A stretch of 36,207 nt of DNA from IMG/VR virus record IMGVR_UViG_3300009788_000210, positions 1 through 36,207 of that record; one strand, 5' to 3'. The DNA comes from a virus. This document shows positions 5,848-36,012 of the stretch, one piece after another. The notes below the pieces were generated by a model. The model was not told the DNA's origin and made no database searches. It saw only the letters and a program-made list of their open reading frames with translations. A program made the translations under genes and the position numbers. Numbering within the stretch: the first letter of the stretch is position 1; each line of letters starts with the position of its first letter.

Positions 5848-5861
5848 AAAGGAGAGCAACA

Positions 5862-6492: not shown

Positions 6493-6520
6493 AACAGGCA
6501 CGCGCAGAAAGGACGCCCGA

Positions 6521-13799: not shown

Positions 13800-13811
13800 C
13801 ATGTTTTCGCG

Positions 13812-13846: not shown

Positions 13847-13911
13847 GGTAAAGAAACACCGTTGCGGGGGGGGGCCGAAGCCCGGCGCCCGGCGACGGAA
13901 GCAGCCAACGG

Positions 13912-14502: not shown

Positions 14503-14521
14503 AGGATTCCTCTCTTGTTAT

Positions 14522-15894: not shown

Positions 15895-16163
15895 CAGATG
15901 CCACCCCTTGTCACTTTGGTCTCAAGGAACCCGGTGATGATAGCGGTTTTGGCCGCATCACTGAATACGCCAGGAGCCACCCTCTCTATGGCATCACGAA
16001 ATCGTGACGCAATGGCATCCCACTCGTCTTCGCATGATTGAATGGCGACTGCCGACTGACTCTTGTCCCACGTAACAGACATTCGAGAAGCCTTCGACGG
16101 ACCACCTCCATCACTTACGCGGCGCTCAATCGCACGCAGCTCTTCGCTTATCATTTGAACCAT
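15894..16163 (-). CDS. Hypothetical late protein, 89 aa
   Basis: A small helical protein coupled to the downstream gene by ATGA. The N-terminal 30 residues are charged (ISEELRAIERRV), the middle contains a tryptophan-rich EDEWDAIASRF segment, and the C-terminus is amphipathic. It is too short to assign. Its position among structural genes suggests a minor virion or assembly protein. No alternative strand or frame competes. Confidence 0.55.
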   Translation of the reverse strand: MVQMISEELRAIERRVSDGGGPSKASRMSVTWDKSQSAVAIQSCEDEWDAIASRFRDAIERVAPGVFSDAAKTAIITGFLETKVTRGGI

Positions 16164-16948: not shown

Positions 16949-17850
16949 TACCAGATTTCCCAACTAGTATTATTGCTCAAAATTTCTATAGCTTCCTTGT
17001 CCGGCGAATCAACCAAAGTCACGGTGGACGCGCCTTCGATCAACTCGGAGCCAAACGGATCGACAGTTACATCGTTTCCCCCGGTTCCAACATTCTTGAT
17101 CTTGAATCTCCGACCCTCGTTGCCCGTCGCCGTTGGTAGATTGACTGTAATAGCAACCAGGGTTGTGTCACACCTAACAGCATGATTGGACTTCGTCAAC
17201 GTAACATCACCGGTAACCGTAGTGATCTTCAAAACAGCCTCACCACCCGGAGCGGCATCGGTATTCATCCACACGCGCGTCTTGGGAGGATCAGCGGGCG
17301 GAGACGTTCCAACATGAACATCGTCGTAGAAATCCGTAACGTCCGCACCATTGGTCTTGACCGATTGGCCATCCGTTCCATCGGCAATTGGAAGCGCAAA
17401 CTCATTATGGATAATCATCGCACCGTCGACATTGTGATCGACACGAAAAATCTCTACACCAGTAGTAAGATCACGCAAGAAAAACGCATCACCACCAGCG
17501 GAATTCTTGAACCCTATCCGCCAACGATCAGGGAATCCCCCGGCGTCAAGAAAATTGATACCGGCTTCAGCATCAATAGTACGATGAAGACAGATCAAGG
17601 TAAAATCGGCGTTAATCGTAAGGGCACCGGTCAAAGTGCCACCAACAAGAGGAAGAAAAAGCGCAAACGTCGCACGCGCCTCATCTAGCGCCTCTCTCAC
17701 GTTCTTGGGAAGAGAAGCCCAATCACCGGGAGTCGTTGGAATGTAAGGAATGCGAACAGCGCGAGCCCAATGGTCAAGATTGTCGACTATTAACCGTGGG
17801 GCGCCATCGAGCCCCAACGGAGAAAGATTGTCTTGGATCAACAACGGCAT
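16948..17850 (-). CDS. Tail fibre-like protein
   Basis: A 300-residue protein started at 17850, where TAATG overlaps the upstream gene; a 30-base longer frame is not needed. The N-terminus resembles virion-attachment segments (LIQDNLSPLGLDGAPRLIVD). LFLPLVGGTLTGALTI near 85-100 matches the PLVGGTLTGPL repeat of phage tail fibre shafts, where it is a common beta-helix entry motif. The C-terminal 80 residues (TGNEGRRFKIKNVGTGGNDVTV) match the small beta domain found at the end of many fibres. A host-recognition fibre is the best reading. Confidence 0.75.
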   Translation of the reverse strand: MPLLIQDNLSPLGLDGAPRLIVDNLDHWARAVRIPYIPTTPGDWASLPKNVREALDEARATFALFLPLVGGTLTGALTINADFTLICLHRTIDAEAGINFLDAGGFPDRWRIGFKNSAGGDAFFLRDLTTGVEIFRVDHNVDGAMIIHNEFALPIADGTDGQSVKTNGADVTDFYDDVHVGTSPPADPPKTRVWMNTDAAPGGEAVLKITTVTGDVTLTKSNHAVRCDTTLVAITVNLPTATGNEGRRFKIKNVGTGGNDVTVDPFGSELIEGASTVTLVDSPDKEAIEILSNNTSWEIW

Positions 17851-18221
17851 TAAATCTGATATCCAACCTCTACGCCCCAAGCAACGTCGTCAGTACCAGC
17901 ACGGACAAGCAGAAGCTTGTCACCCGTACGGAAAAACCACGGAGACGGATCAGATCGTTCATCCGCGGGGATAACCATGTTCATGTCAGAGCCAACACCG
18001 CGATCGTTAGCCTTATAAAGATCGACGTCGAACTCTTCTCCCTCTACGGAGTCTAGCGAAACCTGCAAATCAGCATTGGTGTTCGAGCCCTGCAACAATC
18101 GGAAATGTACACGAATGTACACCAGCTTAAAGGCGGCGCTACCCTCGGGTGGAGAAAACAAAACGGACATGTCACCACTGCCTTCTTCGAAAAATTGAGA
18201 CGTGGATTGTTCAATCGCCAT
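17850..18221 (-). CDS. Hypothetical virion protein, 123 aa
   Basis: A small, acidic, beta-rich protein immediately upstream of the fibre-like gene. Strand-like segments (FKLVYIRVHFRLL, LLLVRAGTDDVAWGVEVGY) suggest a jelly-roll or Ig-like fold. The gap to the next gene upstream is three bases. Likely a small tail or baseplate component by context, but no family is recognised. Confidence 0.6.
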   Translation of the reverse strand: MAIEQSTSQFFEEGSGDMSVLFSPPEGSAAFKLVYIRVHFRLLQGSNTNADLQVSLDSVEGEEFDVDLYKANDRGVGSDMNMVIPADERSDPSPWFFRTGDKLLLVRAGTDDVAWGVEVGYQI

Positions 18222-18223
18222 AA

Positions 18224-18715
18224 CTATGCATCCGGGTCATTGAAAATACGAACATTGTCACCAATCGGAAGGGCCCCATCCAACCGCAACAGAAACGGAA
18301 TTACCTGTACCTGAACACTACCATCATCGACAAGCGACTCATAAGTTGACAAACCACCACTCGGGAAAGCGGTGCCATCAGTACCGGTTATAACATTGAC
18401 AAACTGAATAATTTTGGGAGTAGAGCCTTCAGTGAAACGAAAAAACATGTCGTAGTCAGGCAGGTCGCCAGGAGTACCGGGAATCTCAAGGGGACCCCAC
18501 GGAGTAAGATCAAAAAGCTCAAGAGAAGAAGCCAGCTCAGTAAGTCCAATTTCGCCCGAAACGCGATGAACTCCAGGAATAGGAACGATGTCGTTACCTG
18601 AAAAACTAATGGTCCTGAAAATCTTCCAACGAACAAAGATGATTCCGGGAACATCTACACGCTTGTTTGTGTTTTCAAGAATGTAGTAGGCGCCACGAGT
18701 GGTACGAACGATCAT
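18224..18715 (-). CDS. Hypothetical virion protein, 163 aa
   Basis: Started at ATG 18715, which overlaps the upstream TGA (ATGA); an open frame reaches 18814 but is incompatible with the upstream gene. The protein begins MIVRTTRGAYYILENTNKRVDVPG, contains a central proline-rich loop (PWGPLEIPGTPGDLPDYD) and a beta-rich C-terminus. No enzymatic motif. Its place after the connector gene fits a neck or tail component; this is inferred. Confidence 0.6.
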   Translation of the reverse strand: MIVRTTRGAYYILENTNKRVDVPGIIFVRWKIFRTISFSGNDIVPIPGVHRVSGEIGLTELASSLELFDLTPWGPLEIPGTPGDLPDYDMFFRFTEGSTPKIIQFVNVITGTDGTAFPSGGLSTYESLVDDGSVQVQVIPFLLRLDGALPIGDNVRIFNDPDA

Positions 18716-19176
18716 CAGTTTCCACCACGTGCGACCATAACAGTGAAGTTGCGAATAGAATCGGCGACCACAATGTTTCCATGCGAGGCATCTGTACCAA
18801 ACGTAATCGACCACTCTCCGTTTTCCAGCCCAGCCATCCCCTTGGTCTTGGTGAACGCATCTATATTATCGTCCACCTGCGCCATTTTTGAAAGAATCTC
18901 GACAGTAGCGCCATCGGCAGTGCGAACCTCAGTGACAATGCTGATCTTTACTTGCACACTCCATTGCTTAGCCGTGTCCGCTCGCCCCGACGCAGTAGCA
19001 CCCAACAACTGCAAGGCGACATAAGCCGTTTGATGAGATCCAAGAAGATTCTCGCCCTCGACAACCTCACGAATTTTAACATTGCTATCGGCGCCGGAAG
19101 AACCAACCAACTCCTTCATATGACTGAACAACAAGCTGAAGACGCCCGTAATAGTACCCAGAAATCCATCAGCCAT
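18715..19176 (-). CDS. Hypothetical neck/tail protein, 153 aa
   Basis: First gene downstream of the connector, 13 bases away. A hydrophobic N-terminus (FLGTITGVFSLLFSHMKEL) leads into a mixed alpha/beta domain, with VKISIVTEVRTADGATVEILSKM in the middle. Genes in this position in HK97-like modules often encode head-closure or tail-terminator proteins of about this size. No signature is strong enough to name it. Confidence 0.55.
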   Translation of the reverse strand: MADGFLGTITGVFSLLFSHMKELVGSSGADSNVKIREVVEGENLLGSHQTAYVALQLLGATASGRADTAKQWSVQVKISIVTEVRTADGATVEILSKMAQVDDNIDAFTKTKGMAGLENGEWSITFGTDASHGNIVVADSIRNFTVMVARGGN

Positions 19177-19189
19177 AACAATTCAATCC

Positions 19190-20422
19190 TCAAAACAGGC
19201 GACGATAGCGCTTGGCAATAACTTCAACTTCAGGCAAGATTTCAGTAGGATTCTTGCTGACGGCTGCACCCGAAGCAACAGCAACCCCACGCTGAGAAGA
19301 AAATCTAACACCAACAGTTCTTCGTTGTTGAAACTCGTAAGACGCCTGCAACACATTGGCGTGCCGAAGATCACCAGGAACAGTATGCGGATCATCCAAA
19401 AGGCGATGATGCAAAATGGTTAGCTTGGGAGTTTGCCCCGATGTTCCTTCGGACGACGTAATGATAACACTGGACTGCGTCTCTTCGTCGTTCAATCGAA
19501 CACCAACACTAAGCTGACCAGTATTGACGGCAGCCAAAATCAACGTTTCCATGGCAACCAATCCGGTCGTATTACTCAGCGCAAACGTGTATTCTACCGG
19601 CCCGGGATCTACGCTCGTGGTCGCACCAAGCTGTAACGCTGAACCAGCAGTATTCATATCAGCCCAAAGATTCACAAGATTCGTCGCGCTGTTTCTCGCG
19701 GCATCCACCGACAAAACGTAAACTCTCAAGTTGGTCCCCGACGCCGCTGTAGCAAAAAGAGAAACTTCGAACGTAGAAATATTCCAAGTGGGCATAAACA
19801 CATCTTGAAGCGTAAAACGTAAAAACGCTCGAAGAATGGTGTCAAAAACGGTTCTAGATGCAAGAATCGTTGTGTCCGTCAACCCAGTCAACTGATAATC
19901 AATGCCTTCGTCATGTACAATGTTGTAGTCCAACGTATCAGTAACCGAATTCAGGGTAAGGGTGGAATCTTCTAGCGCAATCTCATCATCTGTCTTGTAT
20001 CCGCCGGTGTACGTCACCTGGATTTGGCCAGCATTATCCTGTTCGTTGCCTAGCCAATTACGGCCGAGCCGACGAAGAACACCATCTGACCCTGGGCGCC
20101 CGCCTGCGCCCGCTTCCAATATGTAGCCAGTTCCCTCGACCAGTTCGGTGTAATTGTCGGAGTCATCGAAGTCTCTGGTTGCAGACTCGCGAACGATGTG
20201 CACCTGTACGATCGGAGAAGAACGAAGCCGGATGGTTCGTTCACCTCCAGAAAGAGTTTCGACAAGAGCGTGGCGGCGGAGCAGCGGGCGTCCAGCAAGG
20301 TTTTCAATGGTTCCTGCGGTCGAGCGAACGATTTCTGTGATTATAGCGTCATCGGTCGAATCAACAATTCCCATGCGGCTTTTGACTTCGGCCACAGTGG
20401 CAAATCCCCTGTCGAAGAACAT
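19190..20422 (-). CDS. gp6-like head-tail connector with a DNRLRE-like insertion
   Basis: A 410-residue protein. Residues 1-142 match the HK97 gp6-like connector pattern: ATVAEVKSRMGIVDSTDDAI, a helical core with ENLAGRPLLRR, then SGGERTIRLRSSPIVQV and QIQVTYTGGY. The family's C-terminal helices and tail resume at about 347 (TVPGDLRHANVLQASYEFQQ and the ending EVIAKRYRRLF). Between them, about 200 residues (143-346) form an extra beta domain with DTILRAFLRFTLQD, W254 and a closing SSEGTSGQTPKLTILHH that recall DNRLRE/disaggregatase-type beta-sandwiches. Normal gp6-like connectors are only 100-200 residues, so this one carries a surface insertion. The connector joins portal to tail. The insertion assignment is by eye. 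Confidence 0.7.
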   Translation of the reverse strand: MFFDRGFATVAEVKSRMGIVDSTDDAIITEIVRSTAGTIENLAGRPLLRRHALVETLSGGERTIRLRSSPIVQVHIVRESATRDFDDSDNYTELVEGTGYILEAGAGGRPGSDGVLRRLGRNWLGNEQDNAGQIQVTYTGGYKTDDEIALEDSTLTLNSVTDTLDYNIVHDEGIDYQLTGLTDTTILASRTVFDTILRAFLRFTLQDVFMPTWNISTFEVSLFATAASGTNLRVYVLSVDAARNSATNLVNLWADMNTAGSALQLGATTSVDPGPVEYTFALSNTTGLVAMETLILAAVNTGQLSVGVRLNDEETQSSVIITSSEGTSGQTPKLTILHHRLLDDPHTVPGDLRHANVLQASYEFQQRRTVGVRFSSQRGVAVASGAAVSKNPTEILPEVEVIAKRYRRLF

Positions 20423-20439
20423 AATGCGCTCCGCCTATC

Positions 20440-21003
20440 TCAATTGTCTTCGTATTCCAGGTAGTACATAGGACCTGTGCCACCGGTCATGTCCGCGTTG
20501 TTGCTTGTGATCGTGATGACTATTTTGTCACCCTTGTCCAGCAACAGGTCTGCGCTAGTGCTCGTCAAAGTGTGGGCGGTCAGGGTGTCATCGGTAAGCC
20601 CTGTTTCGGTTTCGCTTCCACTTGCCAACAGCGCGTTTCCATCACCGGTAATTCCGACTACGACAGTGCCACCAGCCGACTCCGGTGCGTCGGTATACCT
20701 GCGCGTGACACCAGTGATCTTCATCTTGCGCACAGCATAGGTAATATAAGTGTTGGCAGAATTCTCCACCAAATCATCCAATCGGGCCTCCATAGCGTTT
20801 TGGCCGAATCCAAACTTTTCGGTAGCACTGTTGTGTAGAACCTCTGGTAGCGTATCGACATCAGATCGCAAATGAATAGACGAGTTCTGTCTGTTCGTTG
20901 TACTCATCGCGCCCGTTCCACCCGAAATGGCTGGAGGATTTGCTTCGTTTCCGACTTGCAACACGCCCGTAACCTTTTGGTCACCACTGACTGTACTGGC
21001 CAT
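20440..21003 (-). CDS. Hypothetical virion protein, 187 aa
   Basis: A Ser/Thr/Gly-rich protein with a low-complexity N-terminus (GDQKVTGVLQVGNEANPPAI), a short helical segment near 65-85, and a C-terminal beta domain of about 90 residues ending in PMYYLEYEDN. The C-terminal part looks like a small beta-sandwich used in decoration or spike proteins. It lies just upstream of the connector with an 18-base gap. The family is not recognised. Confidence 0.6.
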   Translation of the reverse strand: MASTVSGDQKVTGVLQVGNEANPPAISGGTGAMSTTNRQNSSIHLRSDVDTLPEVLHNSATEKFGFGQNAMEARLDDLVENSANTYITYAVRKMKITGVTRRYTDAPESAGGTVVVGITGDGNALLASGSETETGLTDDTLTAHTLTSTSADLLLDKGDKIVITITSNNADMTGGTGPMYYLEYEDN

Positions 21004-21012
21004 ATCAGACTC

Positions 21013-21246
21013 CTAGCTAAAGATCTTCTCTTCGATTCGCTCGACTCGCCCCTTGATGTTGCTGACGTCGGCCTTAATCTCGATGCACGCATCATGCACA
21101 TCGTCGAGCTTAGTTTTCTTGCTACTACCGTTGTCGTATTTCAACCACACGAGCCAAGCAAAGCAAGCGGCACCGACCAGAAGGCCGACGTACCCGAATT
21201 GGCTGAGGTCCATTTTCTCAAACGGAGCCTGTAGCAATAACAGCAT
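21013..21246 (-). CDS. Holin-like small membrane protein, 77 aa
   Basis: ATG at 21246 is chosen because AAGGAG lies eight bases upstream; later in-frame ATG 21213 has no clear site. The protein has one transmembrane helix at about residues 18-36 (YVGLLVGAACFAWLVWLKY), then a Lys-rich linker and a C-terminal amphipathic helix (DVSNIKGRVERIEEKIF) likely to form a coiled coil. This N-in/single-span plus coiled-coil layout is common among small phage holins and related membrane proteins, and no better holin candidate is present. The function is not proven. The start overlaps the glycosyltransferase gene by 29 bases. Confidence 0.55.
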   Translation of the reverse strand: MLLLLQAPFEKMDLSQFGYVGLLVGAACFAWLVWLKYDNGSSKKTKLDDVHDACIEIKADVSNIKGRVERIEEKIFS

Positions 21247-22063
21247 TTTCAGACTCCTTATTGTCGTCCGACACCGGGAAAAGTGAGGGGTCGTGTTCAT
21301 GTCCCCACGCAATACGACTATCGAAATCGAACACTCCGCAGTGCTTTACGTCTACGGCACGCGTTGCTCCGTAACTGACCCCAAGCTCATGTAACAATCG
21401 CGAGAAGAACCAGTCTTCCGGTTCGGTTCGAGCTACGCGCGAGATACCGGGTTCGGTTTGTTCACCTGTCGTAAGCGTACGGATTTCATCGTTGATCGTG
21501 AAGAGGTATTCGTGCACGGGCGCATGACGCAAGTCCATCACCAGAAGCCCACTGTTAACTAGAAGTGTCGCACAATCACCTTCCCATCCTTCCAATCGCC
21601 CAATGAGATCGGGACCGGTAAACGTCGTCGGCAACTTCATGGTTTCTTGCAGCGTAAGTCTCCGCACATCACCCTTGATCGCAGCATTGGGATCAGACAT
21701 GCAAACACCCGTGCTGGTCAGCCCGCGACCATCCTTGATCGGTACAACGGCAGAGAGCACATCGAGATCGTGTTTCTCCATCTCCGCAATCATAATATTC
21801 AACCAATTGGGTTGAACCGGAACGATGTCGGCGTGCAACAGGCAGAAGTGAGTAAGTGGCACCGCACCGCTCTCTTTCAAATTGAGCGCCGTGCAGAAGA
21901 TGGAGTTGAAGTTGTGAGCCAACAGTGAACAGCAATTCATGTGGACCACGCAGTCAGACAGCTTGGGCGCCTTCAAGATCGCCTGCACCGTACCAATGCC
22001 GATCTGCCCACTATGCGTAGGAACTCCGATGAACGTGAAGGATTTGTTTGTGTTCGATGCCAT
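21218..22063 (-). CDS. GT-A-fold glycosyltransferase
   Basis: A 281-residue protein resembling family 2-like glycosyltransferases. FTFIGVPTHSGQIGIGTVQAI starts the Rossmann-like nucleotide-sugar fold. HADIVPVQPNWLN, at about 76-88, is the metal-binding acidic motif region (His-Ala-Asp rather than a strict DxD). RTEPEDWFFSRLLHELG around 222-238 fits the ED-acceptor motif, and a late HCGVF-His pattern follows. It may glycosylate virion proteins or modify host surface sugars. It sits between the capsid and connector genes together with a methyltransferase, so virion decoration is the simplest idea. Substrate unknown. Confidence 0.65.
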   Translation of the reverse strand: MASNTNKSFTFIGVPTHSGQIGIGTVQAILKAPKLSDCVVHMNCCSLLAHNFNSIFCTALNLKESGAVPLTHFCLLHADIVPVQPNWLNIMIAEMEKHDLDVLSAVVPIKDGRGLTSTGVCMSDPNAAIKGDVRRLTLQETMKLPTTFTGPDLIGRLEGWEGDCATLLVNSGLLVMDLRHAPVHEYLFTINDEIRTLTTGEQTEPGISRVARTEPEDWFFSRLLHELGVSYGATRAVDVKHCGVFDFDSRIAWGHEHDPSLFPVSDDNKESENAVIATGSV

Positions 22064-22068
22064 GGGAA

Positions 22069-22404
22069 CTAGATTCCTTTCTTCTTTTTATTCTTGGGCT
22101 TGCTGTCCGTCTCTTCAACTGCCGGTTCAGGCTCTTGGCCGTCGTCCTGCGGAGGCTCTTGGCCGTCGTCCTCAATTGCCGCGGGAAGCGGACCCCAACC
22201 ATTCGCTTTCGCAACCTCTTCCCAATTGGCAGGGTGAACTTTAGCGCCCGCTAATTCCGCCTTTTGCCGAGTTGTATTAATCAACCCGGCAACGTAACAG
22301 TCGGCCTTCGGATCCCACACGCAGAACCTTGCCGGATTTTTCGGCATAGGTACAACAATGCAACCGTTAGGCAACTTCTTGAAATTTCCGCCCGCTATTC
22401 CCAT
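22069..22404 (-). CDS. Hypothetical late protein with acidic repeat tail, 111 aa
   Basis: ATG at 22404 has AAAGGAAG eight bases upstream and is preferred to the longer frame to 22461. The first 75 residues form a small folded domain (KLPNGCIVVPMPKNPARFCVWDP). The rest is disordered: a duplicated eight-residue DDGQEP unit from a 24-base tandem DNA repeat (about 22121-22170) and a lysine-rich end. It overlaps the methyltransferase gene by 38 bases. No family recognised. Confidence 0.55.
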   Translation of the reverse strand: MGIAGGNFKKLPNGCIVVPMPKNPARFCVWDPKADCYVAGLINTTRQKAELAGAKVHPANWEEVAKANGWGPLPAAIEDDGQEPPQDDGQEPEPAVEETDSKPKNKKKKGI

Positions 22405-23092
22405 AGCAATCTTCCTTTCTAACAATAGCCTCTTCGCAATCAGTTCCTTCGGACAACCCAACTATATGCTCACCTAAAAGGGGGTGGGTTGTCCAGCATC
22501 CACCAGAATTGATAGACGCCCAATAACCATTTTCTCCAAAGCACGCAACAAGAGCATCTCTAACACTATCCTGATACGCATCGTGGCCAGCGAGGATCCC
22601 GGTTCGGCCCTTCCACGCGTTGATGTCGCTTATGACGGCTTCGGTCGTATGGTCTCCGTCGATAAAAACAAAGTCAGCACCACGAATAACCGGCACCGCA
22701 CGAACGCTGTCCATACACAGGATTTCAATGTGATCTTCCAAGTCGAAAGCCTTGATATTCTCCCCAAACACATCCAGCAGCGTGCGATTGGCCGCCAGCA
22801 TCTCCTTGATCTGTAAGTTGTATTCATCTCCACCGTTGGTGCCATCCGCGAAGCTTATCTCAAACGTGTCAACGGCGTAAAGCTCGAAGTTGCAGCCCAT
22901 ACGATCCAGGAGTTGCTTACAAAGATGGATGATGCTTGTGCCCTTCCAGACACCAACTTCTACGAGTACAGGAGCGGTGACAACAGAAGTGCTTCCAGTG
23001 CCAACGTCGCATTTCTTTTCGGCCTCCGAAAAGTGATCGGCAACCCAATCATAAACAGGCCGAAAATTGAACCAACCTCTAAGATCGATCAT
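22367..23092 (-). CDS. Class I SAM-dependent methyltransferase (Methyltransf_24-like)
   Basis: A 241-residue protein started at ATG 23092, with AAGAAGG before it; the frame runs further up to 23269 but would cross a terminator. VLVEVGVWKGTSIIHLCKQL is motif I, binding S-adenosylmethionine, and FVFIDGDHTTEAVISDINAW is the motif typical of the CmcI/Methyltransf_24 family that methylates sugars and small molecules, followed by GILAGHDA. This is not a DNA methyltransferase. Its neighbour is a glycosyltransferase, so the pair may build a methylated sugar on the virion. Substrate is inferred. Confidence 0.7.
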   Translation of the reverse strand: MIDLRGWFNFRPVYDWVADHFSEAEKKCDVGTGSTSVVTAPVLVEVGVWKGTSIIHLCKQLLDRMGCNFELYAVDTFEISFADGTNGGDEYNLQIKEMLAANRTLLDVFGENIKAFDLEDHIEILCMDSVRAVPVIRGADFVFIDGDHTTEAVISDINAWKGRTGILAGHDAYQDSVRDALVACFGENGYWASINSGGCWTTHPLLGEHIVGLSEGTDCEEAIVRKEDCYGNSGRKFQEVA

Positions 23093-23117
23093 GGGAACCT
23101 TCTTAATGGGAACGAAG

Positions 23118-23157
23118 AAAAAAGGTGGATGGTGGCGTTCCCCAACCACCACCCACC
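23118..23157 (-). terminator. Intrinsic terminator after the capsid genes
   Basis: On the minus strand GGTGGGTGGTGG (23157-23146) pairs with CCACCATCCACC (23135-23124), one mismatch in 12, around a ten-base loop, followed directly by TTTTTT (23123-23118). This is a textbook intrinsic terminator between the small capsid-adjacent gene and the methyltransferase. It probably lets capsid genes be expressed more than the downstream genes. Confidence 0.8.
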
Positions 23158-23177
23158 CCGAACACAAACCACCACCA

Positions 23178-23609
23178 CTAAGTTGCGTCGACCTCCGCCG
23201 TGCTCGCGTCAGACGAGTCTTCGGGGCCAAACATGATAAGCGTTGCACCGTAGAGCGCCGAGTTGGCATTCAAGTTGTCAATCGGCTTGAAATACCGTTT
23301 CAGCGCAGTCAGGTCGAAGTAAGCAAACGACGAAGTGTTGTCGTCGGCATTCACGAACGTCAGTAGCCGAGGATTGATGTCAGTCACCACAGGGGCAGGA
23401 ACCGTTGCGAAATTGGCAGCGGCCTCATCCGATTGCTGAATATCGAAATTCAGAGTGACGTCATCGACAATACCCTTACTAATCACAAGAATGGCCTCGT
23501 TCCATCCTCGCGTGTCGATCGCAGTGTTGTTCCCATCTGTCGAAGTCAGAAAATCCGTGGGCGGAATTATCTGCTGAACGCTAATGCGTCGATTGATGAG
23601 TCGTCCCAT
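23178..23609 (-). CDS. Capsid-adjacent structural protein (possible decoration protein)
   Basis: A 143-residue protein directly downstream of the capsid gene. Two consecutive ATGs occur; the second (23609) is better spaced from AAGGAG. It is beta-rich: IDTRGWNEAILVISKGIVDDVTLNFDIQQSD is its most distinctive stretch. It ends before a strong terminator, so it is co-expressed with the capsid at high level. Decoration or head-stabilising proteins are often placed here. The role is inferred from position. Confidence 0.6.
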   Translation of the reverse strand: MGRLINRRISVQQIIPPTDFLTSTDGNNTAIDTRGWNEAILVISKGIVDDVTLNFDIQQSDEAAANFATVPAPVVTDINPRLLTFVNADDNTSSFAYFDLTALKRYFKPIDNLNANSALYGATLIMFGPEDSSDASTAEVDAT

Positions 23610-23679
23610 CATTTTCTCCTTTTGAATAAAACTGGTTTCCAGTTGCCAACAACGTTAATAACTCAGCAAGCTAAGCGCG

Positions 23680-25122
23680 TTACGTCGTAGACGTTCTTCC
23701 CTTCACCAGTTGAGTCCCGTCCATCGCCGAAATCGCCACACGCGCGGTGGAACGAATCCACGTTTGATCGGCGCTAAACCCGGCTTCTGCCGAATTCAGA
23801 ATCCGCAGGGCTCGACGCTCACCAAATCCATACGCCAGTCGCAGGTCACCATAGGCGAAGAAATCGGTCGTCACCGCATCATCAGCCGCATTGGGTAGTA
23901 CGTCGACCGGAACAACGGGATCACCAAGCAGTGACGTTATTCCGCCAAGGGCTGTGTCTCTATCCACAACAACCGGGTCTCCGGCCGATGTCACAATGCT
24001 CTTGATAATCGCAAGAATGTGGCGATGCATGTACCACTTGGCGTTTCGTTGCGACTTTGTCGGCACCAACCCCTGCATTAACGCCAGATCAGTGAAAGTA
24101 ATATCGCTGAAAGACGTTGACGTAGTATTTGTCAGCGCCCCACCAATGGCATTACCCAAAATGTGAGTAACGACGTCAGATTGGGCCAACACACCGGTAA
24201 CACGAGCCTGAGTAGACTGACCAGTCCCTGTAAACCCGTTGGTATCGCGTGCCAGCGCATGGGCATCCACAATCTCTTCACCCATCCAAACGCCGAAGTC
24301 GATCGCCGTATCTTCCAGCAGCTCATTCGACCACTTGGTCAGCGTAGCATACAGCCGAGCGGTCAACATCACGTCGTCCGTATTCGGATCGCTATCTGTG
24401 ATGTCAACGTTCTCGTCAGGATAGAAGATCGTCAGGCCAGAAGTCCGTCGCGGAATGATGAGAATACCGGCACCCATCGGCATGCGACGCGCATTCTGTT
24501 GAAACTCCCCGTGCTCTTCGATGTTCCTGATCAGCTCACTAAGCATCTCGTCGGGCACGGTCGCACCGGCACGCGCATGATCTCCAGCCTCCAAGGCCTT
24601 GAATACCGCGCCGAAAAATGGTTCGTCCTTGGCTTTCTCGACGAACGACTTCATGCGCTCACGAACGACAAGATCGTGAGCACAGTGCCCCATGACCAAC
24701 AAACCAAATGCCTTGCACGCCTGCTCAGATGCAAAGTTCACGGCATACTTGCTGTTGGCTGATGTTTTCCACGGACTGTTACCAATGAACCCACTGCTTT
24801 TGCCCGCGGGCAATTGCTTGAGCGCAGCGCGAGTTGCGTTGATGTGGGTCTCCAGAGACTTGTTCTGGTTTTCCAGCTGCAGCACGATCTTCTCAACAGA
24901 ATCGGCAACCACAACGATGCGAGCATCCTGCTTTTCAACATCACCGGTGATGGACTTTACCCTATCACCGACAGCCTTAATCGCGGTTCCTGTTTGGCCA
25001 ATCGACTCTTGAATTTCATCCAGCGTTGCAGCGTTCGCTTCAGGATCCACTTCATAGTGAATGCTGTTCAGGAACCCCACCCGACAACGATGCAAATGGC
25101 TCCACGGCCTCTTGCTTGACAT
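23680..25122 (-). CDS. HK97-fold major capsid protein
   Basis: A 480-residue protein that builds the icosahedral head. Residues about 25-105 are a coiled-coil delta domain (IKAVGDRVKSITGDVEKQ, KIVLQLENQNKSLETH) normally removed by the prohead protease. The remainder has HK97-fold hallmarks: IIPRRTSGLTIFYPDE, LYATLTKWSNELLEDTAID in the spine-helix region, FTGTGQSTQARVTGVLA, and a C-terminal AYGDLRLAYGFGERRALRI and DGTQLVKG. The ribosome-binding site is AAGGA. Position after the protease and before a terminator fits. Confidence is high although the sequence is divergent. Confidence 0.85.
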   Translation of the reverse strand: MSSKRPWSHLHRCRVGFLNSIHYEVDPEANAATLDEIQESIGQTGTAIKAVGDRVKSITGDVEKQDARIVVVADSVEKIVLQLENQNKSLETHINATRAALKQLPAGKSSGFIGNSPWKTSANSKYAVNFASEQACKAFGLLVMGHCAHDLVVRERMKSFVEKAKDEPFFGAVFKALEAGDHARAGATVPDEMLSELIRNIEEHGEFQQNARRMPMGAGILIIPRRTSGLTIFYPDENVDITDSDPNTDDVMLTARLYATLTKWSNELLEDTAIDFGVWMGEEIVDAHALARDTNGFTGTGQSTQARVTGVLAQSDVVTHILGNAIGGALTNTTSTSFSDITFTDLALMQGLVPTKSQRNAKWYMHRHILAIIKSIVTSAGDPVVVDRDTALGGITSLLGDPVVPVDVLPNAADDAVTTDFFAYGDLRLAYGFGERRALRILNSAEAGFSADQTWIRSTARVAISAMDGTQLVKGRTSTT

Positions 25123-25136
25123 AGAAAGTATCCTTC

Positions 25137-26198
25137 CTAATTACCGACATGAATGCCCACGGCATCAGCATGTCGGATTAGATGTATTTGTGCCTTAGCC
25201 CGAAAGGATTCAGCCGACTCTTTAACAGGCTTGACGTCCTTAACGCTTGCAAGAGCATTGCGCAGCAACGCCTTGTTTATGGCCGAGTTGGACACGGAGT
25301 TCTCAACTTCTCCCGTGTGATGGGGCAGATGGCGGTACTTACAGACAACCGTCCCATCCGGATTGTACTCAGCACCCTTCTCGATGATGAACGCCGAATC
25401 GGGAAGGGTGTCATGAGAGGGATTTGTCGCATCGACACAGAGCGTAGCTAGCGACTGGGCAATCTCATTCAATCCCGATGCCGTCGTGCAGTCTCGACCA
25501 TCTCTCTGCCTACCAACAGAGAGGTTGGCTACTTGATCGGACAGTTCGGCAATCTCCTGCGACAGTTTCCCCATGAATCCGTCAGCAATTCTCTTGGACA
25601 CCTCTTCCAAGAAATCATCAGAACCAACGTCTTTCAACCTCGACTCTAACACCGCAATCCGATCAATAGATTTTGCAGCAATGAGTGATTCACGGTTGAC
25701 CGGCTGGCTTGTCAACGCAACATGTATCAACTCGGACTCAGTAACGACGACGTGCTGCTCGCCACCGCGCTTCGATTGGCGCAATTCTGCTTTTCTACGA
25801 AGGAAACCAGCGGAAAGCGCCTTTATGAACTTCCTGTGAACCTTGCCCTTCCAATGCTCAGAAACCTCATCGGTGTCGAACTCACCCTTCTTGAGAATAA
25901 GCCCCTCTTTGGCCCTGACCACATCAGCACGACCAACAACATTAGAAAGCCCGCTGGAGGTAACGGGATCGAAATGTTGATTCACAACAGGACCACCAGC
26001 GGCCTTGAACGCCTTGAGGTCAACACCCATCGGCTCGAATCGTTCGCCATCCCGATCAACGGTATTGGCGTTCAGTATCCCCCTAAAAAACCGGCCAGGA
26101 TCATCGGGTGAATTAATCGACTTGATGGATAGCCTTGGATGGTAATGGATGCGACCGTCGTCACAATCAATCGTGTCAATAACTTCAAATTCGTCCAT
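25137..26198 (-). CDS. Prohead protease (S78/HK97 type) fused to scaffold region
   Basis: A 353-residue protein. The N-terminal half is an HK97-type serine protease: residues 37-60 (RFFRGILNANTVDRDGERF), catalytic-region VVNQHFD with His75, and ALSAGFL with Ser129, followed by VALTSQPVN. The C-terminal half (about 175-353) has a coiled coil (LSQEIAELSDQVANL) that probably acts as scaffold, then YRHLPHHTGEV and INKALLRNALASV, a small helical domain seen at the end of related phage proteases. It matures the capsid by cleaving the delta domain. It lies two bases from the portal gene. Confidence 0.85.
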   Translation of the reverse strand: MDEFEVIDTIDCDDGRIHYHPRLSIKSINSPDDPGRFFRGILNANTVDRDGERFEPMGVDLKAFKAAGGPVVNQHFDPVTSSGLSNVVGRADVVRAKEGLILKKGEFDTDEVSEHWKGKVHRKFIKALSAGFLRRKAELRQSKRGGEQHVVVTESELIHVALTSQPVNRESLIAAKSIDRIAVLESRLKDVGSDDFLEEVSKRIADGFMGKLSQEIAELSDQVANLSVGRQRDGRDCTTASGLNEIAQSLATLCVDATNPSHDTLPDSAFIIEKGAEYNPDGTVVCKYRHLPHHTGEVENSVSNSAINKALLRNALASVKDVKPVKESAESFRAKAQIHLIRHADAVGIHVGN

Positions 26199-26200
26199 AG

Positions 26201-27538
26201 TTACGCCACTCTCAATTCGGCTTCTATCTCAGCATCCTGTTTCCTGCGCATCTCGACACCGCGCTTAGCCGCCTCGGCGTCATCCAACGGTCCGTCCAGC
26301 AGCAATCGAGCAGGAACCATGTTATCACTCACCCAATACTCGTCACCATGAATCTGTTCGTCAAATCCAAGATCAAATACTCTATTCACTTCGTTGACCG
26401 GAACGCCAGTATTAACCCACTCCCTAGCCTCCTTCGCGCGATCTAGTTGACGATCTTGCAGAATGGGAACATTGGAAAAATCGAACTTGGCTCGAAATAC
26501 TCCAAAGCGTTCGTCAACCGCAATGTTCCAGAATTCCGCAGCCATCTCAGCCCACGGCATAACAGTGTTCAACCAGAAGTTCTCAGTATCCTTGTCGCGA
26601 CTGCCACCTCCGATTGAAACTCCGGACGACGGCGCTTGCGCCCCGAGAAGCGATTCGGGCACGTTGTAGATCGCCAGAATTTCTGCCCGGCTAAGATTCT
26701 TAAGCGTCGGAAACTCCATATCCTTGTGAGTGGATGACACGGGGAACGGTCTCAACCCATTGCCCATGAACGCCGGTTGATGTGCGCGCTTAGCACCTCC
26801 CCGTTTTAACGACCAACGTCTTTGCGCTTCTTCGGCCTGATCCTGTGTAAACCGATCGTCGTCGGTAGAAAACACAATCCCCGGATTCGCCCCGTTCTCG
26901 AAAAACGATCGGTTGTACACGCCGGTGGCAATGTCCGAATACACGGCAAGCCAGCCGGGCGACAAAGGTGACAAACCGTAGACATTACCAAACGGATTGT
27001 CCAACTTCCATTCGACGATCTCATCACCAGGAATCAACGGTTCATCGTTAGTACGACGGAGCCATCGCCAAGCAAAATCCTCGCCAGTCTTCGGATCTCG
27101 TTGAATATCCGGCTTCAGATCGCGGAGGCCCCAAACGCGCAACGATTTTGGCTTCATGCCCTGCTGATCAACGCGCTCGATAAACACATGTCCATCAGTC
27201 AGGATTCGATTCATAACGGCAAACATGAACTGCTTGCCGGATTGCTTCATGTTTGGGCGGCGGGCCAAACGAACTTCGGTCCCACTCTTGATTTCCTTCC
27301 CGTCCAACGTCCGGTGCCTGAACGGAGTGCGTGCAACATTCCGCGCAATTAGCGTGACCGCAGAGTACACCCATCCCGACTGAGCATAAGGCTTGTCAGT
27401 CTTGACCCCGGACCTGGAATCGCAATCAATTTCGTCACCGGCAGAAGCAAAATAAGCGGGGAATTCGGCAATCGACACGCAGGCTTTGTAGGCCGCACGA
27501 ATCAGAATCGGCGGAATGAAATCTCTGAATGTTGCCAA
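26201..27538 (-). CDS. HK97-family portal protein
   Basis: A 445-residue portal forming the dodecameric DNA gate at one head vertex. Typical landmarks are present: SGWVYSAVTLIARNVARTPF at about 54-73, the LARRPN segment, IPGDEIVEWKLDNPFGNVYGLSPL (the DNP...YG.SPL motif) near 168-191, and LSRAEILAIYNVPESLLGA before SGVSIGG. The C-terminal region is the usual helical crown. It reads leftward into the protease, the standard order of an HK97 head module. Assignment is firm. Confidence 0.9.
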   Translation of the reverse strand: MATFRDFIPPILIRAAYKACVSIAEFPAYFASAGDEIDCDSRSGVKTDKPYAQSGWVYSAVTLIARNVARTPFRHRTLDGKEIKSGTEVRLARRPNMKQSGKQFMFAVMNRILTDGHVFIERVDQQGMKPKSLRVWGLRDLKPDIQRDPKTGEDFAWRWLRRTNDEPLIPGDEIVEWKLDNPFGNVYGLSPLSPGWLAVYSDIATGVYNRSFFENGANPGIVFSTDDDRFTQDQAEEAQRRWSLKRGGAKRAHQPAFMGNGLRPFPVSSTHKDMEFPTLKNLSRAEILAIYNVPESLLGAQAPSSGVSIGGGSRDKDTENFWLNTVMPWAEMAAEFWNIAVDERFGVFRAKFDFSNVPILQDRQLDRAKEAREWVNTGVPVNEVNRVFDLGFDEQIHGDEYWVSDNMVPARLLLDGPLDDAEAAKRGVEMRRKQDAEIEAELRVA

Positions 27539-27603
27539 GGCGCCTCACCTTCCAGCAGGATCACACCGTTCAATCATGCCGGACAGCGAATCAAAGTCAA
27601 GCT

Positions 27604-28101
27604 CTACATGGCAAACAGCTGCCTCTGCCTGGAGCCCTCCAAGGCTTTGAACCAGCGATTATGCACTCTTTTCTTAGTTCGTGTGCCTATGTTGGTATAC
27701 CCCATCGCGGCCCAAAACTTATTCGCTTCCAAGCCCTGCGCGCACCACAGCGCTATCCGATCGAACCCCTGGACAACGGCCCGGACCTCCAACATCGTCA
27801 CCAACTGTGTCGCATGATCTATCCGTCTAGCATCATACTGAATGCACGCATGAACGATCTTCATCGTGCCGGCGTCAGTCCTTCTACCACATGGCACATC
27901 TCGTCGATTACCACCGAACAGCATATATCCACACGGCTCATCATTCTCGCGCGTTACCCAAATCTGGCCGCGCTGTTGGTACTCTTCAAACGCCTGCCGA
28001 GGAAGAAACCCGAGTGAATCCCAGTTGTCATCGTGAAGTTTGATGACATACTTCAGGTCGCCCGGCCGAGGAATGTGGATGGCGCTGGATTCAGACGGCA
28101 T
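27604..28101 (-). CDS. GNAT-family N-acetyltransferase
   Basis: A 165-residue protein started at ATG 28101, with AAGGAAG seven bases upstream and an 11-base overlap with the DNA methyltransferase gene. QIWVTRENDEPCGYMLFGG gives the GNAT beta strands 2-4, MKIVHACIQYDARRIDHATQLVTMLEVRA is motif A with an altered acetyl-CoA loop (usual Q/RxxGxG/A not strict), and ALWCAQGLEANKFWAAMGYT is motif B with the typical late GYT/F. Its substrate is unknown; phage GNATs sometimes modify host proteins or DNA-linked groups. Confidence 0.65.
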   Translation of the reverse strand: MPSESSAIHIPRPGDLKYVIKLHDDNWDSLGFLPRQAFEEYQQRGQIWVTRENDEPCGYMLFGGNRRDVPCGRRTDAGTMKIVHACIQYDARRIDHATQLVTMLEVRAVVQGFDRIALWCAQGLEANKFWAAMGYTNIGTRTKKRVHNRWFKALEGSRQRQLFAM

Positions 28102-30174: not shown

Positions 30175-31497
30175 CTAACAGGCCATCGTCAATTCGAACG
30201 GCTCGATCGTAGCAGCAGCATGAACTGCCAACGCCGCAGCCCAAAACCTATCACCATGTCCACCAGCACCGTGAGTCCTCGGCGCTGCAATCTGCACATT
30301 CCCCGCGACCGTCACGTTCTTCTGGATAGAAGCGAAGTCATCGACACAGTCCTCGTCATCTGGCATCCAGAACGCTTGACTCTGCATCGCGTTCTTGATG
30401 CGCGTAGCAACTTCGTTCTTGCTCGCGTTCGTAATGACGAACGGTACGACAACAGAAGGATAGTCAGCAGCCAAGTCCTCAGCCATCTGCATACCGATAC
30501 CATTCTGGTCGATCATCGCACCGGCAACGCATCCGGTATCGAGGATCGCCTTCATCGCTTGCATCTGGAAGCGGAACGGAGCGCCGTCCATAACGTGTAT
30601 CGCTTCGGTCGTGTACACATCACCGGTCTTCGACACTATCCAGATGACAGACAGATCGCGAACGCGACCGATGTCCATACCAACGTACACCTTGCGGCCG
30701 AGAGCAGCGAGCAGCTCTGGTGTGTTGGACAACCGAAGCTTGGCAGAGACACAGTCGAGCACCAACGCGTGCGGGATGAACGCCGTCAGCTTGTCAGAGA
30801 ACAGGCACATGTACTCTTGCAAGAACATGTCCAGACCCATGTCGTGAACCTCTTGGTGCTTGAACTCCTTGAACGATATCTTATTCCCGTGCTCATCAGT
30901 AGGATGGAAGCCATCGGCGATCGCATCCTCGATCGTCGTACGATGGAAGGACCATCCAGAACCACCGCGCTTGTACTTGTCGTAGAGATCGAAGAACTTC
31001 CCGGACCGAGAGCGAGGTGAAGAGATGACAACCATCCTCTTCCCGTGCATGATCGAGGGCTTGATCATCGCGAACACAACGTGCGATGACGGGAAGAGAT
31101 CGAACTCGTCGATCAACCAGTTGCACGTGTCACCAGTCGTGGTGTCGGGGTCACACGGCAGCGCTTCCAGCTCAGCATTGTTAGCGAGAACAATCTTCAG
31201 CGTACCAATGTCCTTGACAATGGAAGGGAGACCGAGCACACCAGTCACGTATCGATCTATCGCACGCACGTGGTCGGCTGCCTTACGCAACAACTTGGCA
31301 GCTTGTCGTTGCGTGCGAGACATGGTGTTCCAGTCTTGTCCAGTCTCCAGTGCGTGAAGCACCGTCTTCAGGGTGGCAGTCCACGACCCACCTATCTGAC
31401 GTGACTTAACCCAACCAATCAGGCGAGACTGATCCTCAAGTACTCGCCGTTGGTACAGGTACGCGGGGACAATGGGATTGCCAACGTTGCACACCAT
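30175..31497 (-). CDS. terL: Terminase large subunit (DNA packaging motor)
   Basis: A 440-residue packaging ATPase/nuclease. The N-terminus has PAYLYQRRVLEDQSR and a Walker A variant KSRQIGGSWT at residues 31-40. Walker B is WLIDE at 127-131, followed by a coupling motif VVISSPRS. The C-terminal RNase H-like nuclease starts at VYVGMDIGRVRDLSVIW with Asp275 and Asp281, and MIDQNGIG supplies another acidic residue. This resembles the Mu gp28-like/Terminase_6 group. ATG 31497 is my choice, because the upstream extension to GTG 31557 is hydrophobic and unlike the family; no clear ribosome-binding site precedes either start. It packages DNA through the portal. Confidence 0.85.
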   Translation of the reverse strand: MVCNVGNPIVPAYLYQRRVLEDQSRLIGWVKSRQIGGSWTATLKTVLHALETGQDWNTMSRTQRQAAKLLRKAADHVRAIDRYVTGVLGLPSIVKDIGTLKIVLANNAELEALPCDPDTTTGDTCNWLIDEFDLFPSSHVVFAMIKPSIMHGKRMVVISSPRSRSGKFFDLYDKYKRGGSGWSFHRTTIEDAIADGFHPTDEHGNKISFKEFKHQEVHDMGLDMFLQEYMCLFSDKLTAFIPHALVLDCVSAKLRLSNTPELLAALGRKVYVGMDIGRVRDLSVIWIVSKTGDVYTTEAIHVMDGAPFRFQMQAMKAILDTGCVAGAMIDQNGIGMQMAEDLAADYPSVVVPFVITNASKNEVATRIKNAMQSQAFWMPDDEDCVDDFASIQKNVTVAGNVQIAAPRTHGAGGHGDRFWAAALAVHAAATIEPFELTMAC

Positions 31498-31557
31498 GGT
31501 GAAGGAGCATATCCCCACCATCGTGGAGATGCAAACGAAAACGTGCAGGATCGGCAC

Positions 31558-31638: not shown

Positions 31639-32298
31639 TTACAGGTCGAAATCAAGGGGATCGTCAGTGACCGCGACATCCGAGCGCGTGTCTTCTATCG
31701 ACACCGAAGGGGCGGTGGGCACGACGTCCGAGGGTGGAGGCTCGACGTCTACCATCGGAAGATCACCGTTCAATCCATACATCCTTTGACGAATCTGTCT
31801 CATCACGTCGGTGGGATCAGTGTTGTCAACCTCAACCACCGTGCGCTCCTTGAACTCGGGTGCATGAGTAGACAGGTAGAACTTGACGGCGTTGAACGCA
31901 ACGGTGTCCCTCCCCGTCATCATGTTGCGAAGCAAGAGTGCGACGTGTGCTGTCGACAGTCCAGCAGCAGAGTCCATGTCCAACGCAAGCTTTGGAGTAC
32001 GCTTCAACCAGATCGAAAGCGTTGAAGGTGAGATACCACACGCACGTGCAGCAGAGGAGCGGGACAATCCGAGCAGCACCATACGACAGAGATCGGCGTG
32101 AATGAACGCATCGTAACCGGACAACACAGGTCCGGATGCGTGAGGTTGTGGTTCAACAGGCACAAGCAACTGAAGCGAGCGATCAATCAGGTCTCTCGTC
32201 TGTGCGTCGAGCGTCTCGAACGCGTGAAGCTCATCATCGCCTTCACTGTTCAAGGCGGTGAGGGTAGCATCATCAGGTTGAGACTTGCAATCGTGCAT
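31639..32298 (-). CDS. Probable terminase small subunit
   Basis: A 219-residue protein immediately upstream of the large terminase. GTG 32301 and ATG 32298 are adjacent; I use the ATG. Residues about 70-125 hold a helix-turn-helix (LCRMVLLGLSRSSAARACGI, PSTLSIWLKRTP), as small terminases use to bind the packaging site. The next segment (HVALLLRNMMTGRDTVAFNAVKFYL) is helical and could oligomerise, and the C-terminal 60 residues are acidic and proline-rich, the usual contact for the large subunit, ending in DFDL. Context and domain order support the call; a general HTH regulator is the alternative. Confidence 0.65.
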   Translation of the reverse strand: MHDCKSQPDDATLTALNSEGDDELHAFETLDAQTRDLIDRSLQLLVPVEPQPHASGPVLSGYDAFIHADLCRMVLLGLSRSSAARACGISPSTLSIWLKRTPKLALDMDSAAGLSTAHVALLLRNMMTGRDTVAFNAVKFYLSTHAPEFKERTVVEVDNTDPTDVMRQIRQRMYGLNGDLPMVDVEPPPSDVVPTAPSVSIEDTRSDVAVTDDPLDFDL

Positions 32299-32321
32299 CA
32301 CTTATTGTTATCATCCAACAC

Positions 32322-32522
32322 GTGACAAAGCAAGGATACATCCCGCCGAACGACGAATCCTACGAAGATTCACTCATGCGTGTCCCGACAGGATACACTG
32401 CACGCAGTTGGGCAACAAGACTATCGTCCTTCATCAGTACAGACGGACAGCATCCCAACGAGATAGCGATAGCTTCCGCCGTCAAACGATTGATCTCCAG
32501 TATCCCACCCACCCACCCCTAA
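32322..32522 (+). CDS. Possible small protein, 66 aa
   Basis: A GTG-started frame diverging from the small terminase with only about 20 bases between them. The product has ordinary protein composition (YIPPNDESYEDSLMRVPTGY, ISTDGQHPNEIAIASAVKRL), but no ribosome-binding site is visible; translation might be leaderless or begin at ATG 32376. The final codons run into the repeat region, where the CACCCACCC string is repetitive. A leftward promoter candidate lies inside it. Uncertain. Confidence 0.35.
   Translation: MTKQGYIPPNDESYEDSLMRVPTGYTARSWATRLSSFISTDGQHPNEIAIASAVKRLISSIPPTHP
32390..32418 (-). promoter_or_regulatory. Weak candidate leftward late promoter
   Basis: On the minus strand TTGTTG (32418-32413), a 17-base spacer, then TATCCT (32395-32390). 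It is the only sigma70-like pair I found ahead of the terminase-led late operon. TGTATCCT occurs again about 50 bases closer to the gene. Weak match. Confidence 0.25.
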
Positions 32523-32790
32523 GAACATCCATGTCACGGCAGTCCACAGTCGCAAGCGTACTCAAGCATCCAACATCTCATCTCTTCGCAGTCCAAGCGT
32601 CCAACATCTCTCCTCCTCGTGTGTTCAGCCGTTGAGACATTCAATCGGTCAGCTTATCACGCCCCCTTCGCAGTCAAGCTAACATCTCGCCGCTCGATCA
32701 CCCAATCCGTTGAGGTATTCGAAGCGTTGACTTGTCCACTTCATTCGAACGTCCTCTTGAAGTCCAAGCGTACAACATCCAATCACCCGT

Positions 32791-32897
32791 GTGTCTCGCC
32801 GTTGCGTTGTTCAAACGGTTGACTGAACAGCAACAACAACAACCATGTCACGGTAGTCCATAATCGCAAGCGTATCCGAGCACCCACCCACCCAGTT
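32791..32897. repeat. 107-bp direct repeat, copy 1
   Basis: Nearly identical (one difference seen, at the T/C in CCATGTC versus CCACGTC) to 33477-33583. It contains CGCCGTTGCG, the AACAACAACAAC run and CACCCACCCACCC, and leads straight into the folded element. Confidence 0.9.
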
Positions 32898-32912
32898 TTC
32901 TGACCTTCGAAC

Positions 32913-33031
32913 GTCTTATGAGACTTGTTGAGCAAGTTGCGGTCGCTTCGCTCCCGCGTCCTCGTTTCGTGGGTTGTCCCCTTGAGCGGTACAAGGAGGC
33001 GAAACTCGTCTGTACTCGCCGCTGGAGCGGC
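32913..33031. ncRNA. Folded element, copy A (candidate structured RNA or ssDNA)
   Basis: A 119-base segment with four consecutive stems shared with copy B: GTCT/AGAC (32913-32924); TGCGG/CCGCG (32938-32942 with 32954-32958) around an 11-base loop; GTTTCG/CGAAAC (32964-32969 with 33000-33005) enclosing about 30 bases; GCCGC/GCGGC (33018-33022 with 33027-33031) with loop TGGA. Stems are kept while bases change between copies, which points to structure rather than coding. The transcribed strand, if any, is unknown. Confidence 0.55.
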
Positions 33032-33476
33032 ATCGTGGAAGAACAGCAAACAGCAACACATCCGACGTCCTCTTGAAGTCCAAGCGTCCAACATCTCTCC
33101 TCTTGCATGTCTCACCGTTGCGCACTTCAAACGGTTGACTCAACAACAACATCCACGTCGCGTCAGTCCACAATTGCAATCATGTCCAAGCGTCCAACAT
33201 CCAACCACTTCGTAGTCCAAGCGTCTGCGTTGTTCACAAGGTTAGATTCGTCCACTTCATTCGATCATCTAATGACAATTCCAATCGTCCAACATCTATC
33301 CACTTCATTTGTTGAACCGTTGGTGCATGCAACCGGTCGGGTTGGAACGTCCTCTCGGCATCCAGACTAACAGCTCGCCACTCGATCACCTAATCCGTTG
33401 AGTTATTCACACGATTGACTTCGTCAGCTGCATTCCAATGTCCCCTTCGTATTCAAACTAACATCTCTCCTCTTGT

Positions 33477-33583
33477 GTGTCTCGCCGTTGCGTTGTTCAA
33501 ACGGTTGACTGAACAGCAACAACAACAACCACGTCACGGTAGTCCATAATCGCAAGCGTATCCGAGCACCCACCCACCCAGTT
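33477..33583. repeat. 107-bp direct repeat, copy 2
   Basis: Second copy of 32791-32897, offset 686 bases, with one difference seen. It too is followed by the folded element. Confidence 0.9.
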
Positions 33584-33598
33584 CACGTACGTTCGTAC

Positions 33599-33717
33599 GT
33601 CTTCTGAGACTTGTTGAGCAAATTCGGCGTTGCTTCGCTCCGCCGTCCTCGTTTCGTAGGTTTTCCCCCTGAAGGTTACCTAAAACGAAACTCGTCTCTA
33701 CTCGTCTCTGGAGAGAC
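33599..33717. ncRNA. Folded element, copy B (candidate structured RNA or ssDNA)
   Basis: Offset exactly 686 from copy A and the same length. Stems: GTCT/AGAC (33599-33610); CGGCG/CGCCG (33625-33629 with 33641-33645); GTTTCG/CGAAAC (33651-33656 with 33686-33691); GTCTC/GAGAC (33704-33708 with 33713-33717), loop TGGA. An additional perfect stem, ACGTAC/GTACGT at 33585-33600, precedes it and overlaps the first stem by two bases; copy A lacks it. Two stems differ from copy A by paired substitutions that keep base pairing. Confidence 0.55.
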
Positions 33718-33857
33718 TCGTAACAGCAAACAGCACGGCTCACGTTTCACCTTCTGATTCTTTAACCATTTCACCAACACATCTACGACATCTTCCCGTG
33801 GTCGGACGTACCACTCCATTCACACAGATTTCCTATCAACTGACGATCATTGAAGGA

Positions 33858-33956
33858 CACCGACCATGGTCGGTGAGTTTCTTCCTTAATCGTCCGGAAC
33901 GGACTCACTTTAGCGGAACTACGTTCCTTACTGGAACCAGAGCCCCCAGGTTCCAG
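33858..33956. promoter_or_regulatory. Cluster of inverted repeats upstream of the early promoter
   Basis: Four dyads in 100 bases: an 18-base perfect palindrome at 33858-33875 (half-site CACCGACCA); GTCCG-gaa-CGGAC at 33892-33904; GGAAC-tac-GTTCC at 33915-33927; CTGGAACC (33931-33938) with GGTTCCAG (33949-33956). The last three share a GGAAC/GTTCC core. CGTGC/GCACG follows near 33990-34005. Together with 33746-34059 I see no gene here; it is probably an operator array or folded leader. Confidence 0.55.
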
Positions 33957-34059
33957 ACCTCCTTCCCCACTCCCCGACCATCGGTTCCCCCGTGCGTGCG
34001 CACGAGGAAAAAGCAGAAAAAAGAGGAGAAAAATAAAGAGAATAAACTTTATTTTTCTC

Positions 34060-34088
34060 TTGACCTTGTACGCGTTATCGTGTATATT
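34060..34088 (+). promoter_or_regulatory. Strong sigma70-like early promoter
   Basis: TTGACC at 34060-34065, a 17-base spacer, then TATATT at 34083-34088: five of six matches at each hexamer with ideal spacing, in an AT-rich setting. The gene start is at 34113, 25 bases on, leaving a short leader with AAGGTGG. This is the best promoter match in the window. Confidence 0.7.
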
Positions 34089-34112
34089 GTAGGTAGTGAA
34101 AGGTGGTGTGTA

Positions 34113-35862: not shown

Positions 35863-36012
35863 ATGCGTAGTCTTGGCCAGAAGTTTTCTCTACACAGGGT
35901 GTTTAGAGTGCTATCCGACACGTTAGTGGGTAATTGTGCAACTGTGCCACACGTTAGCGTGTCGGATATGGTGATTTATGGTACTTTACACGATTGTTTT
36001 TACGTGTTCTGA
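35863..36012 (+). CDS. Possible 49-aa protein over a long hairpin
   Basis: ATG 35863 follows AGGAG and AGGG purine stretches. The 49-residue product is mixed (MRSLGQKFSLHRVFRVLSDT) with no motif. The same bases form a long inverted repeat, so part of this sequence is constrained as structure and the frame may be accidental. Confidence 0.3.
   Translation: MRSLGQKFSLHRVFRVLSDTLVGNCATVPHVSVSDMVIYGTLHDCFYVF
35912..35968. promoter_or_regulatory. Perfect 11-bp long-range inverted repeat
   Basis: TATCCGACACG at 35912-35922 pairs perfectly with CGTGTCGGATA at 35958-35968. ACACGTTAG occurs in direct orientation near both arms (35918 and 35949). Not followed by a T-run. Confidence 0.65.

Follow-up and report, generated by a model that had tools for sequence, protein, structure and literature searches.

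A duplicated, probably folded element in an origin-like control region of an unclassified phage

Between the late and the early genes of the virus record IMGVR_UViG_3300009788_000210 lie two copies of a hairpin-rich element, here called A and B, in which stems persist although their bases differ. The question raised by this locus is whether such an element is a noncoding RNA, a structure formed by single-stranded DNA, or a product of mutation alone. The window that we analyzed is the whole record, which is 36207 bp long and linear and in which no end repeats were found. Leftward-oriented late genes (terS, terL, portal, capsid, connector) extend from about 32.3 to 12.5 kb, with early genes in the rightward orientation starting at about 34.1 kb and again at the left end; A and B occupy the noncoding gap separating the two sets (Table 1). 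The early set comprises a SLOG-family protein, a pol III delta-like AAA protein, an SbcC-like protein, RecT, a RecD-like helicase, an ERCC4 nuclease and a primase-helicase, whose helicase core matches a protein deposited in the PDB as a DNA primase (7ola), which we take to be the SaPI5 enzyme. The large terminase (30175-31557, - strand) has its nearest counterparts in B3/Mu-like phages at about 24-30% identity, and the replication genes are not Mu-like. A single tRNA-Met(CAT) gene (13544-13616, - strand) lies roughly 1 kb away from where the early and late operons converge. Over positions 1-9600, spanning early genes, the AT skew of the + strand is very strong (A over T, +0.2 to +0.56) and fades from about 10 kb.

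Table 1. Coordinates of elements A and B and of the features discussed with them.
Feature	Position	Strand	Remarks
Primase-helicase, DUF5906/D5-like	9548-12082	+	SaPI5-primase-like helicase core; candidate initiator
Small terminase subunit gene (terS)	31639-32301	-	phrog_309 (weak), HTH_23; leads leftward late operon
Repeat array	32520-33760	+	About eight modules of ~80-110 nt; dyad CCGTTG...CAAACGG in about five; iteron GTCCAAGCGT
Duplication, copy 1	32578-33055	+	Holds element A; 79% identity, E 3e-107
109-bp block adjoining A	32789-32897	+	One base differs from block adjoining B
Element A	32918-33037		P1 32920-32924/33008-33012; P1a 32930-32932/32961-32963; P2 32938-32942/32954-32958; P3 32964-32970/32999-33005; P4 33013-33015+33018-33022/33027-33031+33035-33037
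Duplication, copy 2	33265-33741	+	Holds element B; partner of copy 1
109-bp block adjoining B	33475-33583	+	Near-identical partner (99%) of block adjoining A
Element B	33604-33722		P1 33606-33610/33694-33698; P1a 33616-33618/33648-33650; P2 33625-33629/33641-33645; P3 33651-33657/33685-33691; P4 33699-33701+33704-33708/33713-33717+33720-33722
Cluster of perfect short hairpins	33780-34060		7 within 260 bp vs a mean of 1.3; highest density in window, tied with two further places
Most AT-rich 60 bp of window	34008-34067		75% AT; 13-bp AT-rich palindrome at 34026-34059
Early promoter, sigma-70-like	34060-34088	+	TTGACC-17-TATATT, 10/12 matches; upstream of SLOG-family gene

The two copies, reported in a preliminary description of this DNA as lying exactly 686 bases apart, were located at the positions given in Table 1, about 686 bp apart, and align at 77% identity with three single-base indels. 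They have a common layout, a three-way junction plus hairpin, in which P1 encloses P2 and P3 and the hairpin P4 comes next. Besides P2 and P4, the shared stems are P1 (GAGAC/GTCTC, with one outer mismatch in A), P1a (GAG/CTC) and P3 (GTTTCGT/RCGAAAC). As first described, the AGAC/GTCT pairing of P1, the GTTTCG/CGAAAC pairing of P3 and the loops are unchanged between copies, and reading frames are not kept, the three indels breaking the shared frame mid-element. The arms of P2 and P4 in A, and those of P1 and P4 in B, are able to swap partners. Other potential structures of the window include a long stem-loop around CACCGACCATGGTCGGTG at 33836-33891, with several short hairpins after it as far as 34010, and a long intergenic hairpin, TATCCGACACG...CGTGTCGGATA, at 35911-35969 (+ strand; folding z -2.9). 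The sole G-quadruplex motif of the window, GGGGTGGGTGGGTGGG with one-base loops (32504-32519, - strand; about one is expected in shuffles), lies where a plausible ORF of 66 aa (32322-32522) has its 3' end, and shorter runs, GGGTGGGTGGGTG, adjoin both elements.

The double-sided changes between the copies fall within two stems. P2 reads TGCGG/CCGCG in copy A but CGGCG/CGCCG in copy B, which amounts to two double-sided changes and a U-G to C-G change of the outer pair (given a gap shifted by one column), while P4 reads GCCGC-TGGA-GCGGC in A and GTCTC-TGGA-GAGAC in B, with two further double-sided changes. Among the 30 pairs, four are changed on both sides, two on one side to give G-U, and one is broken in A. 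Two helices with two or more double changes each arose in 14 of 3000 column-shuffling trials; shuffled columns equalled the fold energy in 1/500 on the + strand and 0/500 on the - strand (RNAalifold z = -3.5 and -4.4, respectively); a shuffle of the 3' letters, which is a weak test with two sequences, gave 31/500. Simulating 11 random substitutions on the stems of A yielded at least four kept double changes in 19 of 200000 runs, a figure that overstates the significance because the stems were picked with both copies in view. The changes are real and non-random, and the fold shared by A and B is probably real; to call them strong evidence of selection on that fold, as had been done, is too strong for two paralogues, and we put the chance that the fold is functional at about two in three.

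Paired changes do not by themselves demand selection. Template switching within hairpins can generate multi-base compensatory changes from one event, and in rRNA such events are enriched for 4-nt loops (PMC8794818), a length that the P4 loop also has. The hairpins of A and B might have been made and kept perfect by this quasipalindrome-correcting mutation, with no selection on pairing, in a region that is rich in repeats and hairpins: the P4 arms of B are identical to its P1 arms and lie inside an exact 10-base tandem, ACTCGTCTCT, and those of A have GCGG/CCGC in common with P2. We nevertheless find this origin unlikely, as P1 and P3 are conserved as well, no other helix with two double changes was found in the duplication, and, apart from the P3 apex, loops and junctions are better conserved than the stems. 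Changed positions amount to 3/33 of the unpaired positions outside the P3 apex, the best-conserved part of the element, 11/60 in stems and 10/28 in the P3 apex. The conserved loops, and a duplication that is otherwise quiet, favor selection acting on the whole element, although the double changes themselves may still stem from template switching.

The exact 686-base spacing, singled out in the preliminary description, turns out not to be special, as each element belongs to a segment of about 450 bp that recurs in tandem at a period of about 687 bp (~686-687 bp). The duplicated segment is itself built of modules of ~80-110 nt, and the iteron GTCCAAGCGT is present in five copies (~32591-33225) and absent from the rest of the window. 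That the 109-bp blocks are near-identical while the elements have diverged would point either to a recent conversion stopping at the element or to strong constraint on the block. The duplication might also be decaying coding sequence on the - strand, where ORFs at 32848-33108 and 33534-33743 terminate at one duplicated stop codon and have LQRRV.TSF and LGGWVLGYACDYGLP in common. Their shared 3' end, however, is merely the 99%-identical block, and single-base indels shift the middle into different frames, by which a coding remnant appears largely refuted; we consider it very improbable.

Relatives of the elements were sought in several collections. Neither element matched Rfam at the gathering score or a relaxed E-value, and phage records gave no DNA match and only distantly similar proteins. 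Pattern searches of IMG/VR (with the conserved 5' part, the P2-P3 core, P3, P1 and the iteron) and of GTDB genomes (with P3) returned nothing or chance matches, which on inspection lacked the shared fold and were rejected as homologues. The preliminary description had proposed a covariance model as a check; the one built from both copies (R1) matched only those two copies, its best other match reaching 17 bits in a locus chosen by its anchors. Searches with TerL, capsid and primase found no relative extending to the element region. The record IMGVR_UViG_3300024265_000187 is 100% identical over 13683-27743, and the phage has therefore been assembled at least twice; judged from its length and its matched ends, that record covers only ~1518-27743, short of the elements. 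These searches required exact short patterns or near identity, so that distant relatives could escape them. Since no homologue was found, the covariation rests on two paralogues. As judged from these searches, A and B are an orphan element in a phage without a close sequenced relative.

We then considered on which strand the elements may fold. For B, the shared fold is the RNA minimum free energy (MFE) structure on both strands, and with DNA parameters its - strand is also predicted near the shared structure (z -2.6). For A, the best + strand structure with the shared pairs has -33.0 kcal/mol vs an MFE of -44.8, 11.8 kcal/mol off, and shared-fold pair probabilities are near 0; on the - strand it has -36.3 vs -41.0, 4.7 kcal/mol off, and the fold is only partial, with pair probabilities of about 0.67-0.94 for P1 and P4. 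Folding z-scores are -2.2 and -2.6 on the - strand vs -0.7 and -1.7 on the + strand. On the - strand, the internal loops of P2 and P4 are GA/GA (GA/AA in P2 of B) and the tip of P2 is GCGAAGC, a motif very stable in DNA; both the loops and the tip are stabilising. Three G-U pairs of A, all at helix ends, exist on the + strand only and are A-C mismatches on the - strand. Overall, these predictions lean toward the - strand as the acting one. Promoter hairpins of an N4-type virion polymerase were considered for GCGAAGC and rejected, no annotated gene being such a polymerase.

These data bear on two RNA readings. The new phage noncoding RNA first suggested in the preliminary description would be a discrete + strand transcript, on which the three one-sided changes give G-U pairs, the MFE structure of B is exactly the shared fold, and the P4 loop TGGA offers a GGA core that presumably resembles CsrA-type sites. 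It loses ground in that copy A is predicted to miss the shared fold on this strand, neither copy is framed by a promoter or terminator, and no homologue was found; like the phage-linked RNAs of Rfam (pRNA, GOLLD, c4), A and B are folded phage noncoding elements, yet they match none of these. We regard such a transcript as improbable.

The better folding z-scores on the - strand, and the smaller departure of A from the shared fold there, would instead suit a structured - strand RNA, a long leader of the late operon exerting put-like antitermination or control before 20 kb of genes. The elements do lie upstream of terS on that strand, and the regional GC skew agrees with the late-gene strand. 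We found no convincing - strand promoter upstream, however, and a terminator-like hairpin is present at 34059-34026 on that strand; the leader would exceed 1.4 kb, HK022 put being smaller, and would carry the A-C mismatches of A. HK022 carries two put copies. Its put RNA is likewise a folded phage element that acts in cis close to a control region, but consists of two simple stem-loops (PMC9378689), in contrast to the three-way junction plus hairpin predicted for A and B. A late leader therefore strikes us as unlikely, although less so than a + strand transcript.

The surroundings of the elements resemble a replication origin. Short direct repeats are restricted to one noncoding region and an AT-rich region is adjacent, as expected of an iteron origin; the AT-rich tract also overlaps the start of the early promoter. 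The cumulative GC skew has its minimum near 33.6-34.2 kb, which would also be expected from divergent gene orientation. Replication of the phage satellite PLE requires a repeat-rich noncoding region with iterons, together with RepA (PMC7145576). Like PLE and plasmid iteron origins, the present region combines such a repeat-rich noncoding stretch, iterons, dyads and an AT-rich tract, and the genome encodes an initiator-type primase-helicase as the candidate initiator; it differs in that the iteron sequence is not shared and that two 120-nt multi-stem elements with compensatory changes are present. The origins of P4 and SaPI are further iteron-type origins of satellites. We consider 32520-34090 most likely to be the replication origin and early/late control region of the phage. 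A packaging site (cos/pac) near terS was also considered and gained no support from anything tested.

Our favored reading, to which we assign a probability of roughly 0.4, is that A and B are folded cis-acting elements of this origin-like control region and function either as single-stranded DNA or on a short local transcript. They would fold once the DNA is single-stranded, or within such a transcript, and the phage primase-helicase, for example, may use them to land or to prime. In being multi-hairpin, 100-200 nt long and active as single-stranded DNA, they would resemble what we assume for single-strand initiation sites (G4-type ssi, plasmid sso). This reading is supported by stems kept despite sequence change, fixed loops and four double-sided changes, and further by the iterons, dyads, AT-rich tract, hairpin cluster, skew minimum and early D5-like primase-helicase gene, as well as by the stabilising loops and P2 tip of the - strand and the DNA-parameter fold of B on that strand. 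Counting against it are the absence of homologues from the collections searched, the predicted fold of A, which differs from the shared structure on either strand and strongly so on the + strand, and the three +-only G-U pairs of A, which would fit RNA. Of the two possibilities raised in the preliminary description, a single-stranded DNA structure used in replication suits the surroundings better than a noncoding RNA, in view of the origin-like repeats, AT-rich tract, hairpin cluster and skew minimum; the identity of the origin, the single-stranded action of the elements and their binding partner are what we infer from this.

Nothing at present demands a new kind of system. In its broadest form, the proposal that A and B are two diverged copies of a previously unrecognised structured element, RNA or single-stranded DNA, serving as a switch of replication or of late transcription in an unclassified phage lineage, is tentative and somewhat doubtful. 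Because two paralogues in one genome can covary without homologues, the locus provides a clean case for telling template-switch mutation apart from selection on pairing. Should the fold prove functional, A and B would constitute a structured element that acts in cis within the control region of a phage without a close sequenced relative, and would offer a small, testable target for how replication starts in phages with D5-like primase-helicases.
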